This document shows, one piece after another, positions 50,938-59,273 of a DNA stretch of 64,000 bases. The stretch's first letter is position 1; the number at the start of each line of letters is the position of its first letter. The DNA is from Flavobacteriales bacterium (lineage in GTDB: Bacteria; Bacteroidota; Bacteroidia; CAIKAF01), in contig JAKRSD010000024.1 of NCBI GenBank assembly GCA_022402535.1, positions 1 through 64,000 of the forward strand, in the 5' to 3' direction. The notes beneath the pieces were generated by a model. The model was not told the DNA's origin and did not search any database. It saw only the letters and a program-made list of their open reading frames with translations. A program made the position numbers and the translations under genes.

Positions 50938-53900
50938 CTATCCTGTGATTTTCATTTTAACACCTTCCAACTGTTTGATCGAACGCATCAAATCATCGGT
51001 TAAGGCGACTTTATATTTTTTCACGATGGCTTCTGAAATTCTATCGGTGGAAGGGTCTGCAATTTTAAATCGCACATTCAGATTCCCGGGATTATGCTTA
51101 AAAACCTGCTCCAGTTCCATTATAGTCTGTGAAGTAAGATTTTCCAGAGAGGTTAAAAAAATGAGGTTTTTTGCCTTTTTATTACGAAGCGTATTGAGCA
51201 GTTCCATATTCTGCACACGCAGTTCGGGTTTTCCGTCGCGGTAGCCTTTAGTCACTTTGGCCGTAACAAACAGAAAATGATCGGGTTCCATATACGGACG
51301 GAAGTTTTTGTAATCTTCACCGAAAAGGCGCGTGGTAAACATCCCGGTAAAATCTTCCAACGTAACATCGCCATATGGTTTCCCGTTATTTTGCGATATT
51401 TTATGCGCCGAAGAGGTAACAATTCCTGCAAACTGAAACACTTTGTCAATCATTTTCTCGTCCAGCTCCAAATTTTTGATTTCGGCCAGCGAAATATTAC
51501 AAAACGCTTCAATATCCAGTTTGAAATCATCGAGCGGGTGCGCACTCAAAAACATTCCCACCACTTCTTTTTCGCGACCCAGCTCGTAGAGTTTATTCCA
51601 TTTTTCAACTACGGGCATCTGCGGTTCCACAATTTCAGTTTCCACCGAATCGCCAAAAAGGCTCACCACACTGCTTTCCGCATTCTGGCGGAAAGCATTT
51701 CCAAAGCGGAGAATTTTATCCAGCATATTTCCTTTGCCGGCTTCTTCTTCGTGAAAATAAACCGCACGATGTACCTCATCAAAACAATCAAAAGCACCCG
51801 CCAGTGCCAGGCTTTCCAATGATTTTCGGTTGGCGGCTTTTTGATTGATTCGCTTTACCAAATCAAACACGGAAGAAAACGGACCGTTTTTGCGCTCTGC
51901 AAGCAGACTTTCTACCGTAGCCTCTCCCACTCCTTTCACAGAGTTTAATCCAAAACGGATCTGCCCTTTGGCATTCACACTGAACTCTTTTTCCGATTCG
52001 TTCACGTCAGGCCCCAATACCGCCAATCCCATACGTTTACACTCTTCCATGTAGAAAGAGATTTTATCTATGTTTCCCTGGGCGTTTAATACAGCCGCCA
52101 TATATTCAGCAGGGTAATGCGCCTTGAGATACATGGTCTGAAAGGCAACAAACGCATAACAGGTAGAGTGCGATTTATTGAAGGCGTATGCCGCAAAGGC
52201 TTCCCAGTCGGTCCAGATTTTTTCCAGTTTTTCAATATTCAGCCCTTTGGCTCCCGCCTGTTCTATAAACTTAGGCTTCAGTTTATCCAGCGTGGCTTTG
52301 TCTTTTTTACCCATCGCCTTACGCAGGGTATCGGCTTCGCCTTTCGTAAAATCAGCCAGTTTTTGTGAAAGCAGCATCACCTGCTCCTGATACACCGTAA
52401 TTCCGTAGGTTTCTTCCAGGTATTCTTTAAGTTCGGGTAAATCGTACGTAACGGGCTCCTGACCGTGTTTCCGTTTGATGAAGTTTGGAATATACTGTAA
52501 CGGCCCCGGTCTGTACAGGGCGTTCATGGCAATCAGGTCTTCAAACTTGTCAGGTTTCAGGTCTTTCAGGTATTTCTGCATACCCGCGCTTTCAAACTGG
52601 AACGTGGCAATAGTATCACCACGCTGATACAATTCAAGTGTTTTGGCATCATCCAGCGGAATGGCATCAATATCAATTTTAACGCCGTGTTTGTTTTCAA
52701 TCAGTATAAGACTGTCGCGAATGATCGTGAGGTTTTTAAGTCCCAGAAAGTCCATTTTAATTACCCCGGCATCTTCCACCACTTTACCGTCGTATTGGGT
52801 TACCAGCAAATCCGACTCTTTGGAAGTGGCCACCGGCAAAATGTTCATGAGCGGCTCGGGAGCAATAATTACCCCGGCAGCATGAACACCCGTATTCCGG
52901 ACGGAACCTTCCAATAGTAGGGCTTCTTTCAGCACTTTAGCCCGGAGATCGTTGCCGGCGTATAATTCCCGAAGCTGCCGTACACCTTCCATATCTTCGG
53001 GGGCTAACTGCTCTTTAGAGGCCAGGCTTTTTTCCCCGGGTTTGCAATCCGCATCTTTCAAGGGAGCGGTAATCACTCTTTTGAGCGATATCCCCGGTTT
53101 ATCCGGAACCAGTTTGGCCAGAATATTACTTTCCTGCAGCGGTAAATCCATAACCCGGGCCACATCTTTAATACTGCTTTTGGCCGCCATGGTTCCGTAA
53201 GTAATAATTTGAGCCACCTGATTTTTACCGTATTTATCCACCACATAATCAATCACTTTCTGACGACCCTCATCGTCAAAATCGGTATCGATATCGGGCA
53301 TGGACTTACGATCAGGATTCAGGAAACGCTCAAACAGCAGATCGTATTTAATCGGGTCTATATTGGTAATTCCGATACAATAAGCCACTGCCGAACCGGC
53401 AGCCGAACCACGCCCCGGACCAATCAGAACGCCCAAATCGCGACCTGCGGCAATAAAGTCGGCCACGATCAGAAAGTAACCCGCAAACCCCATGGTTTTG
53501 ATGGTAAACAATTCAAACTCCAGACGCTCCACCGTGGACGCTTCTAATTCGCCATATCGCTTCCGGGCGCCTTCAAAGGTGAGATGTTTCAGGTATTCCC
53601 ACTGATTGAGCACATCGGCACCTTCGCCGTGGTGTATTTTAAACTCTTCAGGTACCGGGAAATTCGGCAGCATGATATCGCGCTTCAAATCCAGGGGTTG
53701 AATTTTATCCACGATTTCGCCCGTGGTATCCGTGGCAAAAGGAATATCCGCAAACAGGCTGTTCATTTCCTGCTGCGTTTTAAAATAAAACTGGTCGTTG
53801 TAAAAGGCAAAACGGCTGCCCTTGGGCATCCCTTCATCTTCCGAAAAATCTTTGGCTTTGGGTGTACTCTGCAATTCCCCCGTGTTGATACAAAGCAAAA

Positions 53901-54618
53901 TGTCGTGGGCATTGGAATCTGCCTGATCCACATAATGAGAATCGTTGGAAGCGATCACTTTTACGTTGTATTTGGCGGCAAATTTCAACAACACTTCATT
54001 CACCTTATTCTGGTCGGCAATGTCGTGGCGTTGAAGCTCGATATAGTAATCTTCACCAAACAGATCGAGCCACCACTTGAATTCCTCCTCCGCTTCAGCT
54101 TCGCCTTTTCTCAATATGGTTTTGGGCACTATGGCCCCCAGACAACAGGTAGTGGCTATCAACCCTTTGTGGTATTTGAGCACCAGTTCTTTATCAATTC
54201 GCGGATATTTTCCGTAAAGTCCCTCCATGTATCCCAGCGAGCACATTTTAGAAAGATTACGGTAACCTTCTTCATTTTTAGCCAAAAAAAGCTGATGATA
54301 CCTAACATCCTTTTCTTCGCGGGTAAAGGCCCGGCGGGTTCGGTCTTCCACCATGTAAAACTCACAGCCCACAATAGGTTTCACGTCGTATTGCCATTCT
54401 TTTACAATGGAACCATCAGGCGAAATGGCATCTACTTTTTTGCCGTATTTCTGGGCTTCAGCCACAAACTTAAACACCCCAAACATGTTTCCGTGGTCGG
54501 TAATGGCCATGCCGCGCATACCGTCATCCTTTGCTTTTTTAAACAGACGCGAAACATCGGCAGCCCCATCGAGCAGCGAAAACTGGGTATGTACGTGTAG
54601 GTGGTTAAATTCCGGCAT
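50938..54618 (-). CDS. dnaE: DNA polymerase III subunit alpha
   Basis: 1226 residues, the replicative polymerase catalytic subunit. The N-terminal PHP domain begins HLHVHTQFSLLDGAADV and continues MAITDHGNMFG. The polymerase core shows the LIGPGRGSAAGSAVAYC block, the catalytic PDIDTDFDDEGRQKVIDYV, and EQVMLLSQKLADFTKGEAD with FNKSHSTCYAFVAFQTMYLKAHYP, cited in fragments. A helix-hairpin-helix (KGVGEATVESLL) and an OB-fold (QFAGIVTSSAHKISQNNGKPYGDVTLED) lie towards the C-terminus. There is no inserted proofreading exonuclease, so this is DnaE rather than PolC. Length is normal for Bacteroidota. Confidence 0.97.
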   Translation of the reverse strand: MPEFNHLHVHTQFSLLDGAADVSRLFKKAKDDGMRGMAITDHGNMFGVFKFVAEAQKYGKKVDAISPDGSIVKEWQYDVKPIVGCEFYMVEDRTRRAFTREEKDVRYHQLFLAKNEEGYRNLSKMCSLGYMEGLYGKYPRIDKELVLKYHKGLIATTCCLGAIVPKTILRKGEAEAEEEFKWWLDLFGEDYYIELQRHDIADQNKVNEVLLKFAAKYNVKVIASNDSHYVDQADSNAHDILLCINTGELQSTPKAKDFSEDEGMPKGSRFAFYNDQFYFKTQQEMNSLFADIPFATDTTGEIVDKIQPLDLKRDIMLPNFPVPEEFKIHHGEGADVLNQWEYLKHLTFEGARKRYGELEASTVERLEFELFTIKTMGFAGYFLIVADFIAAGRDLGVLIGPGRGSAAGSAVAYCIGITNIDPIKYDLLFERFLNPDRKSMPDIDTDFDDEGRQKVIDYVVDKYGKNQVAQIITYGTMAAKSSIKDVARVMDLPLQESNILAKLVPDKPGISLKRVITAPLKDADCKPGEKSLASKEQLAPEDMEGVRQLRELYAGNDLRAKVLKEALLLEGSVRNTGVHAAGVIIAPEPLMNILPVATSKESDLLVTQYDGKVVEDAGVIKMDFLGLKNLTIIRDSLILIENKHGVKIDIDAIPLDDAKTLELYQRGDTIATFQFESAGMQKYLKDLKPDKFEDLIAMNALYRPGPLQYIPNFIKRKHGQEPVTYDLPELKEYLEETYGITVYQEQVMLLSQKLADFTKGEADTLRKAMGKKDKATLDKLKPKFIEQAGAKGLNIEKLEKIWTDWEAFAAYAFNKSHSTCYAFVAFQTMYLKAHYPAEYMAAVLNAQGNIDKISFYMEECKRMGLAVLGPDVNESEKEFSVNAKGQIRFGLNSVKGVGEATVESLLAERKNGPFSSVFDLVKRINQKAANRKSLESLALAGAFDCFDEVHRAVYFHEEEAGKGNMLDKILRFGNAFRQNAESSVVSLFGDSVETEIVEPQMPVVEKWNKLYELGREKEVVGMFLSAHPLDDFKLDIEAFCNISLAEIKNLELDEKMIDKVFQFAGIVTSSAHKISQNNGKPYGDVTLEDFTGMFTTRLFGEDYKNFRPYMEPDHFLFVTAKVTKGYRDGKPELRVQNMELLNTLRNKKAKNLIFLTSLENLTSQTIMELEQVFKHNPGNLNVRFKIADPSTDRISEAIVKKYKVALTDDLMRSIKQLEGVKMKITG

Positions 54619-54840: not shown

Positions 54841-54848
54841 TACTTTTG
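54841..54848 (+). promoter_or_regulatory. Possible -7 box of the unrecognised 232-residue protein gene
   Basis: TACTTTTG matches the consensus exactly and ends 15 nt before the ATG at 54864. No TTTG is found at -33, so the promoter may depend on an activator or be weak. Confidence 0.4.
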
Positions 54849-54863
54849 GAAAAATAAATAATT

Positions 54864-55562
54864 ATGGCCAATCGAATCACCGCAGCTAACTTCAGAAAGC
54901 TATACAACAACGCAACTCTGTTAAATCCTTCACAGGCAAACTATAAGGCGGGTTGTCAGTTTGAATATGGGACCCGTGCCGGAAAAAAGACGTTCAAAAT
55001 CGGCGGATATTTTCATTCGTTTTTACCCCTGAACGAAACGGATGCTGATTTTCTGCATGATTATTTCGATAAAATTGCTCACAATACACCCGATGAAGCT
55101 CAATTTGGAGAACTCGATATTTCAACCGTTGCAGACATCAAACTGAATCTGAATATTCCCAATATCAATCTGAATTTAGGAGCTATGGTGGATTACACCA
55201 AGGTGACCAAAATCTCCTTCGACGAGGTCTGTTGCCGCTCATTGCTTCACGACAAGAAAGCGGTTGACAAAATGATCAGGTTATTAAAATCCCTGGAAAA
55301 TGAAAAGGATTTTAAGAAAAAACTGGCGCCCATCATGTTTTTACACGATGTGTATTATGCCCAAAAAGTACATATAGGCGTAGAAAGAGGATTGGGCGCT
55401 GAGCTGAAAGCGAAATTAGAAACCGCTGGTGTGGATGTGGGTGTTGAAGGAAATCTGGACACCAAATCTACTTTTACTTTTGAAGGAAACACCCGGGTTC
55501 CTTTTGCCGCAAGAGTAGAATCTATCGGAGATTTTATTAATCCGCTGAGAGGAAGAAAATAA
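54864..55562 (+). CDS. Unrecognised 232-residue cytoplasmic protein (gasdermin-like layout, speculative)
   Basis: I do not recognise this protein with certainty. It has no signal peptide. Visible are an N-terminal CQFEYGTRAGKKTFKIGGYF strand pair (residues 31-50), a helix ADFLHDYFDKI, the run DIKLNLNIPNINLNLGA (91-107), a strand with KVTKISFDEV, a Lys-rich helical middle (about 128-154), then IMFLHDVYYAQKVHIGVERG (157-176), a segment ending EGNLDTKSTFTFEGNTRVPFAARV (cited in part: GNTRVPFAARV, 208-218). The order of strands, the helical middle, and a final PFAARV where gasdermins have LAFRV recall the gasdermin N-terminal pore-forming domain. This is an inference from memory of family patterns, not a search result. 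It is a single-gene unit between dnaE and a convergent gene, with no protease gene beside it. Confidence 0.55.
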   Translation: MANRITAANFRKLYNNATLLNPSQANYKAGCQFEYGTRAGKKTFKIGGYFHSFLPLNETDADFLHDYFDKIAHNTPDEAQFGELDISTVADIKLNLNIPNINLNLGAMVDYTKVTKISFDEVCCRSLLHDKKAVDKMIRLLKSLENEKDFKKKLAPIMFLHDVYYAQKVHIGVERGLGAELKAKLETAGVDVGVEGNLDTKSTFTFEGNTRVPFAARVESIGDFINPLRGRK

Positions 55563-55627: not shown

Positions 55628-56155
55628 TTAATCCGGTTTTGAAAAAAACAGCAAATCCCAAAACACTTCCAAGTGGCGGGTATAACTTTCGGGAACGGCC
55701 GTGAGCAGGAATATATAAAAGCGGTTATTCATGCAGATTGTACACATCACGTCTTTCCACATTTTACCATCTTCACGGAACGTAAATACGTTTTGTTTGA
55801 ATGTTTTTCCACCCACGAGGGTATCTCGCTCTATAACCGAATAAAAATCAGATAATTCGCGTAAACCTTCCGTTACGTTGCGGCGATACACCGTATTGCA
55901 GGTTTCTCCCGCCGGAATTTCAAATCCGTTGATGCTGATATTTTCACCTTCAAACGATCGCCCTTCTTCGTAAGGAGCATATAATATGATTTCGTTTTTA
56001 TACGATTTTATTTCCCAGGTGGCGGGCAATCGTCTCAATTGCAAGCGCAGATAAGGATGTCTGTACACCTGAACCGATGTGGTTTGGGCTGAAGCCGAAT
56101 CTGCAAGAAGAAATGTAAACAGGAAAAAGAAAAGACCGAATGTTCTTGAAATCAT
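55628..56155 (-). CDS. Small secreted protein of unknown function
   Basis: 175 residues with a signal peptide (MISRTFGLFFFLFTFLLADSASAQ). The mature part is one alpha/beta domain: YLRLQLRRLPATWEIKSYKNEIILYAPYE, then ENISINGFEIPAGETCNTVYRRNVTEGLRELSDFYSVIE, and FTFREDGKMWKDVMCTICMNNRFYIFLLTAVPESYTRHLEVFWDLLFFSK, cited here only as landmarks within that order. The strand-helix pattern, ending with a helix after a FYIFLLTA strand, is reminiscent of PsbP/Mog1-like folds, but this is only a shape argument. Three Cys residues are present. Its start codon overlaps the stop of the cysteine desulfurase gene (ATGA), so it is probably co-translated with it. Confidence 0.72.
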   Translation of the reverse strand: MISRTFGLFFFLFTFLLADSASAQTTSVQVYRHPYLRLQLRRLPATWEIKSYKNEIILYAPYEEGRSFEGENISINGFEIPAGETCNTVYRRNVTEGLRELSDFYSVIERDTLVGGKTFKQNVFTFREDGKMWKDVMCTICMNNRFYIFLLTAVPESYTRHLEVFWDLLFFSKPD

Positions 56156-58534: not shown

Positions 58535-58933
58535 TCAAAGTCCGATATAAATAGCCCTGATCCAGTTAATGAGCACCAAAATAAAAATCAGACCGAGCCA
58601 TACAGTATTCATGGGCCTTTGAATAAAAGGTCTGAATGTGTCTTTTTTTATGATGATATCGCGGATAAGCCAGATAAGCGAAATCCAAACTAATATATGG
58701 AAAGGTATGGCCCACCAATGAAAATGAAGCGATTCGGCAATATTTCCTTTGAACAATTCGATGGATGCACGGCCCATACCGCAACCAGGACAGGGATATC
58801 CGGTTACATTTTTCACCACACAAAGGGTGTACGAATGGTCGGAATTGGTTTCGGCAGAAAACCATAAAAAAAAGTAACCTCCTGCTATCACAAGAATAGT
58901 CAGGAGGTTACGAAACAACAAGGTTTTCACCAT
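58535..58933 (-). CDS. DUF2752 membrane protein
   Basis: 132 residues with three hydrophobic segments. The family motif is GYPCPGCGMGRASIELFKGNI (cited as PCPGCGMGRA, with two Cys), followed by FHWWAIPFHILVWISLIWLI. The function of DUF2752 proteins is unknown; the Cys-rich loop suggests metal or redox contact, but that is inference. It begins 1 bp after the TM2 protein gene, a pairing seen often in Bacteroidota, so the two probably work or are expressed together. Confidence 0.9.
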   Translation of the reverse strand: MVKTLLFRNLLTILVIAGGYFFLWFSAETNSDHSYTLCVVKNVTGYPCPGCGMGRASIELFKGNIAESLHFHWWAIPFHILVWISLIWLIRDIIIKKDTFRPFIQRPMNTVWLGLIFILVLINWIRAIYIGL

Positions 58934-58934
58934 A

Positions 58935-59273
58935 TTACATGGCTACGCGCTGAAGCTGAGTAAAGTTATACTCTTTAGTTCTTTTAGTTACGGTAAACCA
59001 GTCGATAATTGTCCAGATACCACAACCACCGCTAGTAAGAAGTTTGGCAACGCCTAAACCGGTTTCACCCAGCATAAAACGGTCAATACCTAAACTTCCT
59101 GCTACGATAGAAATAATTAACAAGGTGGTTGGATCTTTATAAGATACCGCTTGTACCACATTAAATTTGCTATCATCCAGATTAGCTAACAATTCGCGAA
59201 CTGCCATTTGTTTTTCTTCTGGAAATTTGCTTCCGTTAGAAGCGATGAACATGTCGATCTTTGACTGATCCAT
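58935..59273 (-). CDS. TM2 domain membrane protein
   Basis: 112 residues. The N-terminal half is soluble and helical (MDQSKIDMFIASNGSKF...AVRELLANLDD). The C-terminal half is a TM2 domain: two membrane helices joined by a short loop, with the conserved DRFMLGETGLGVAKLLTSGG and GIWTIIDWF blocks. TM2 proteins are widespread but their role in bacteria is undefined. It is directly followed by the DUF2752 gene. The 100 bp upstream show no exact -7 box. Confidence 0.92.
   Translation of the reverse strand: MDQSKIDMFIASNGSKFPEEKQMAVRELLANLDDSKFNVVQAVSYKDPTTLLIISIVAGSLGIDRFMLGETGLGVAKLLTSGGCGIWTIIDWFTVTKRTKEYNFTQLQRVAM

Follow-up and report, generated by a model that had tools for sequence, protein, structure and literature searches.

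Gasdermins kill cells by opening pores in membranes, and the known bacterial members are switched on by a partner protease. Until then, a C-terminal peptide of about 20 residues keeps them inactive (PMC9612521). Most of them carry a palmitoylated N-terminal cysteine, and protease genes are closely linked to theirs (PMC9612521, PMC12547243). The gasdermin of Trichoplax adhaerens (TrichoGSDM, 250 aa) is a homodimer consisting of the N-terminal, pore-forming domain (NTD) only, and is opened by reduction in a cleavage-independent manner (PMC12547243). RCD-1 of Neurospora crassa (244-257 aa) is NTD-only as well, has no inhibitory domain, and fires when two alleles meet (PMC11760362).

A gene for a protein of this compact kind lies in a 64,000-nucleotide stretch of a Flavobacteriales genome (contig JAKRSD010000024.1, positions 1 to 64,000), referred to here as the window. 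Its product is very probably homologous to bacterial gasdermins. We consider it likely to be a bacterial gasdermin consisting of the pore-forming domain alone, which would open pores in the inner membrane and be regulated by some means other than C-terminal cleavage. It lacks the architecture of the canonical protease-activated proteins, as an earlier sequence-only reading of this DNA had remarked in part.

The gene and its surroundings

The gene, its neighbors, and the parts of its product are as follows.

50938-54618, running away from the gasdermin-like gene: dnaE, flanking it on one side
54841..54848, + strand: promoter-like box TACTTTTG, fitting the Bacteroidota -7 consensus TAnnTTTG, 15 bases before the ATG
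54864..55562, + strand: gasdermin-like protein, 232 aa, predicted to comprise the N-terminal (pore-forming) domain only (PADLOC bGSDM, ortholog, Foldseek of two models)
55113..55196, + strand: residues 84-111, a pair of strongly amphipathic strands that may form the first membrane hairpin (beta-moment)
55176..55514, + strand: residues 105-217, matching positions 97-211 of 257 of the bGSDM profile (PADLOC)
55332..55523, + strand: residues 157-220, strand-helix-strand(s) block ending in TFEGNTRVPFAARV (low-confidence model, alignment with the Vitiosangium gasdermin, beta-moment)
55509..55559, + strand: C-terminal tail of 17 residues, ARVESIGDFINPLRGRK, conserved in the ortholog and replacing the canonical autoinhibitory C-terminal region
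55628-56155, - strand: DcrB-like lipoprotein (secreted), 175 aa, converging on the gasdermin-like gene

The open reading frame starts with ATG and ends with TAA. As the sequence-only reading had stated, its 232-residue product has no signal peptide, and a transmembrane helix is absent too (top hydrophobic 19-mer 0.62 on the Kyte-Doolittle scale). It is more than a chance open reading frame, because it has a relative at 56% identity, a dN far below dS, and an excess of amphipathic strands. The relative (L003, 233 aa) is encoded by a different genus of the same family, on contig JACVCJ010000005.1 of 'Bacteroidia bacterium isolate Desfum bin_9'. Between the two genes dN is about 0.38 and dS 1.7-2.6; both evolve under purifying selection. 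Amphipathic beta-strand windows number 30 in the window protein against a mean of 4.6 in shuffled sequences, a count reached by 0 of 500 shuffles.

The gene stands alone beside housekeeping genes, in surroundings that are not a defense island. A cysteine desulfurase-type aminotransferase gene converges on it as the DcrB-like gene does, a TonB receptor is also among the neighbors, and the scanned neighbors include no PADLOC gene. The lack of an adjacent protease, already pointed out by the sequence-only reading, is borne out by the neighboring genes: the closest peptidase found, an M42 aminopeptidase, is encoded on the far side of dnaE at a distance of about 9 kb. The other 15 genomes of the order returned no match to the DcrB-like protein. 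The box TACTTTTG weakly suggests a single-gene transcript; its consensus has 63 matches in the window on both strands, or about one per 2 kb per strand. Adjacent TM2 and DUF2752 genes lie at 58535-59273 (-), about 3 kb from the gasdermin-like gene, with no sign of a link to it.

Similarity to bacterial gasdermins

Among the 5,027 PADLOC models, bGSDM (PDLC02986) was the sole match of the window protein (E 4.8e-6, residues 105-217). The ortholog L003 hits the same model at matching positions (E 5.3e-6), as does an independent 77-aa fragment from another genome (L008) in a matching region (E 2.8e-9). The NCBIfam gasdermin model NF051890 gives a weak match (E 0.0045; 16.8 bits, below its curated cut-off of 100). 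The comparison with Pfam that the sequence-only reading had proposed returned no match at all, PF04598 included.

Searches of the PDB depend on which relatives are in the profile. An alignment profile including the f54 group, a set of stand-alone gasdermins described below, retrieved the Vitiosangium gasdermin only (E 5e-4) up to E 10; the profile lacking that group gave chance matches only, and phmmer with the single window protein gave none. Direct comparison of the window pair (the window protein and L003) with the f54 gasdermins by hhalign gave a probability of 0.2%, so that the link between them rests on the PADLOC model. Reciprocal profile searches, from which the other members were left out, link the window pair with L008, with a further relative (L035), and with a group of four proteins (L021-L024, the f22 group). 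With the database size fixed at 1e5, a model of f22, L035 and L008 retrieves the window protein with an E-value of 3.5e-11 while 0 of 151 decoys are significant, and hhalign of the window pair with the f22 group gives a probability of 90%. Judged by these profile searches, the window protein is a member of a coherent family in the sampled Bacteroidia genomes.

Two AlphaFold models were built from separate alignments, each with a low-confidence mean pLDDT of 46. The alignment of the first included the f54 group, whose members are recognizable as gasdermins by sequence; that of the second contained no such sequence apart from the L008 fragment. In Foldseek searches of 350,542 PDB chains, the top 7 matches of the first model were all bacterial gasdermin chains (prob 0.63-1.00, best E 9.5e-5), the eighth match falling to prob 0.08. 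The top 6 of the second were likewise all bacterial gasdermins (prob 0.85-0.99, best E 8e-4). TM-scores are near 0.25 for both models, and the alignments show 9-18% identity to the solved structures. The structural comparison suggested by the sequence-only reading is therefore favorable as to ranking (bacterial gasdermins on top, prob 1.00 and 0.99) and poor as to pLDDT and TM-score: a gasdermin fold is the predicted one, supported by the ranking and not by a good model or superposition.

The order of elements in the window protein corresponds to that of the bacterial gasdermin pore-forming domain, and sequence similarity to gasdermins is weak across the N-terminal 100 residues. The strand run that had been cited as DxxxDIxLxL is present as DISTVADIKLNL (85-96), with the actual spacing D-x5-D-I-x-L-x-L. 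The dVxxAQK-type strand was found at 162-168 as DVYYAQK, and the final strand as TFEGNTRVPFAARV (205-218). Amphipathicity in segments 84-111 and 176-200 is strongly above that of shuffles, and the strand pairs are retained at the expected positions in both orthologs. The two segments appear to coincide with the positions of both gasdermin membrane hairpins. Residues 84-111 would form the first hairpin, and the block at 157-220 is a candidate for the second hairpin together with the last core strand.

An unrelated, amphipathic, beta-rich protein that matches gasdermins by chance would explain why Pfam is silent, why model confidence is low, and why the first profile match spans half of the protein. 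Against this very improbable reading, independent relatives match the same profile at the same positions, both models rank only bacterial gasdermins on top of the PDB chains, and the gasdermin hypothesis preceded the search. The gasdermin-like identity first put forward from sequence is upheld by PADLOC, the ortholog and fragment matches, the PDB profile search, and Foldseek of the two models.

Truncated ends and scattered relatives

The bGSDM match stops at residue 217 of 232 in the window protein, compared with position 211 of 257 in the PADLOC profile and 217 of 266 in 7n51. After the last shared strand, about 15 residues follow in the window protein versus 49 in the Vitiosangium gasdermin (7n51) and 46 PADLOC positions. 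Past the PxA motif, the window protein has 17 residues and L003 has 16, compared with 12 for the f22 proteins and 11 for L035. A search for the lost tail in all downstream frames found no continuation of the protein; in L003, a convergent radA open reading frame lies 10 bases past the gasdermin-like stop. No C-terminal autoinhibitory peptide with a cleavage site was found in the window protein, and in all 9 proteins examined the first 20 residues are free of cysteine. The only cysteines of the window protein are at 31, 123 and 124, of which 31 and 124 are kept in the ortholog. Reading of open reading frames revealed no dedicated linked protease at the window gene, at L003 or at the other full-length relatives. 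As far as sequence can tell, the short end, the missing N-terminal cysteine, and the lack of a linked protease or defense gene are common to all full-length relatives examined. The window protein, with its C-terminal domain apparently absent, would then be NTD-only and not part of a canonical bacterial gasdermin system.

The tail, conserved to its last residues between the two orthologs, might instead be a very short inhibitory segment ending in RGR, with the activating protease encoded elsewhere in the genome. The published inhibitory peptide is only about 20 residues long (PMC9612521), which would favor such a canonical system, but the segment past the last shared strand has only about 15 residues against 49 in the known structure, only 11-12 residues follow the PxA motif in other family members, and there is no N-terminal cysteine for a peptide to cover. 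Furthermore, published systems are closely protease-linked and the full-length relatives are not, so that we regard a canonical gasdermin with a short segment as improbable.

The f54 set of stand-alone gasdermins (L005:1498-2199, L025:7161-7862, L034:7363-8064) matches PADLOC with E down to 2e-28. Its members have neither an N-terminal cysteine nor a dedicated linked protease, and the bGSDM match of L005 reaches about model position 224 of 257, 33 positions short of the profile end. Because these matches also stand alone, and that of L005 ends early, all full-length gasdermin-like genes from the phylum samples would be pore-domain-only. A separate arrangement is seen at L008:1507-2799 (also L030), from a genome that is 83% complete, where the 77-aa C-terminal gasdermin fragment is divergent from an adjoining M6-type metalloprotease-like open reading frame; a gasdermin-protease pair may have been disrupted here, or the sequence may be misassembled.

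Within thin genome samples, the gene is carried by 2 of 16 genomes of the order, and clear cases number 5 in 395 genomes of the class. A scan of genome contigs found L003 only. Weak matches at L013-L015 and L041-L043 were rejected on reading as chance, being unrelated genes or non-coding frames. The neighborhoods of the window gene and L003 are unrelated and their base composition is roughly that of the respective hosts, which makes a recent transfer improbable. Relatives of the window protein were absent from plasmids, phages and viral contigs, as were those of the f22, f54 and L035 proteins from viral contigs and those of the f22 and f54 proteins from plasmids; these empty searches give no sign of a mobile carrier.

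The f22 group occupies a fixed locus and is vertically kept. In its four genomes (L021:7467-8564, L022:7824-8921, L023:6966-8054, L024:7403-8597) the gasdermin-like gene lies 61-75 bases 3' of a small, co-directional gene for a TM2-type membrane protein, and is convergent with hemB. The two genes likely form an operon, and the TM2-type protein could be a partner of the gasdermin-like protein. A further genome, G761, retains the TM2 gene at this TM2-hemB locus (L027:7800-8230), next to a decayed gasdermin remnant. Since the remnant is riddled with stops, G761 has lost the gene. Such decay at a fixed site, together with the patchy occurrence, indicates a dispensable accessory function, a pattern that fits defense, short of proof.

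In the main rival reading, the protein has kept the gasdermin fold but lost its killing activity. It would be a domesticated or otherwise non-lytic relative that serves as a scaffold bound to membranes, as a dominant-negative regulator, or in secretion or the formation of small pores. The solitary position of the window gene beside housekeeping genes and the vertical inheritance of the f22 relatives speak for this reading, as stable inheritance without an off switch is easiest if the protein is not toxic. We nevertheless hold it to be unlikely: amphipathic strand pairs persist at the expected positions in both orthologs, and the patchy occurrence and the decay in G761 resemble accessory defense and not housekeeping.

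Putative mechanism and comparison with known systems

In the favored model of a pore-forming, cleavage-independent gasdermin, active subunits would attach to the cytoplasmic membrane from the inside. Each would then insert two beta-hairpins, giving a large ring pore that kills or permeabilizes the cell. Pore formation is predicted here from sequence, and the most plausible role would be self-sacrifice on phage or other damage. Restraint would have to do without C-terminal proteolysis, because nothing is present to cut off. Subunits might associate with one another and thereby hide the face that binds the membrane, the way the Trichoplax gasdermin does. Alternatively, activity might depend on a partner or ligand, like that of fungal RCD-1, or expression might be tightly controlled. 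Restraint at the protein level is favored over expression control, since the gene is intact under purifying selection over deep divergence. A redox switch through Cys31 and Cys124 in the bacterial cytosol is speculation; Cys31 is near the probable beta1 region, and the f22 proteins have at most one cysteine.

Chances are about even that a gasdermin family scattered across Bacteroidota retains the pore-forming domain alone and is regulated without proteolysis. If so, cleavage-independent control, known to date from Trichoplax and fungi, would extend to bacteria. Prior reports of protease-free or tail-less bacterial gasdermins may exist, the literature having been covered in part. The puzzle is how a cell can survive with a protein that resembles a pore-former in its active form, and its answer would tell whether protease control was gained or lost in gasdermins. 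Genes of this kind are missed by Pfam, by the NCBIfam cut-off, and by searches keyed on a neighboring protease.

The canonical bacterial gasdermins of Runella (7n52), Vitiosangium (7n51/8sl0/9a84) and Bradyrhizobium (7n50) have a homologous pore-forming domain and are the top structural matches of the window protein. In contrast to them, it lacks the C-terminal autoinhibitory region, the N-terminal cysteine, the protease partner, and the defense-gene context. The f22 proteins match it significantly by profile (at the 90% probability given above) and share its truncated end and the missing protease, but are 20-24% identical to it and sit at a fixed locus 3' of a TM2-type gene. RCD-1 resembles it in being NTD-only without an inhibitory domain; two incompatible alleles are required there, whereas a single copy of the gasdermin-like gene was found in the window genome. 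TrichoGSDM is likewise a single NTD-only protein of similar size with no C-terminal domain. It differs in being eukaryotic and in using disulfides of the beta1-beta2 loop for control, whereas the window protein has Cys31 and Cys124, both conserved in its ortholog.
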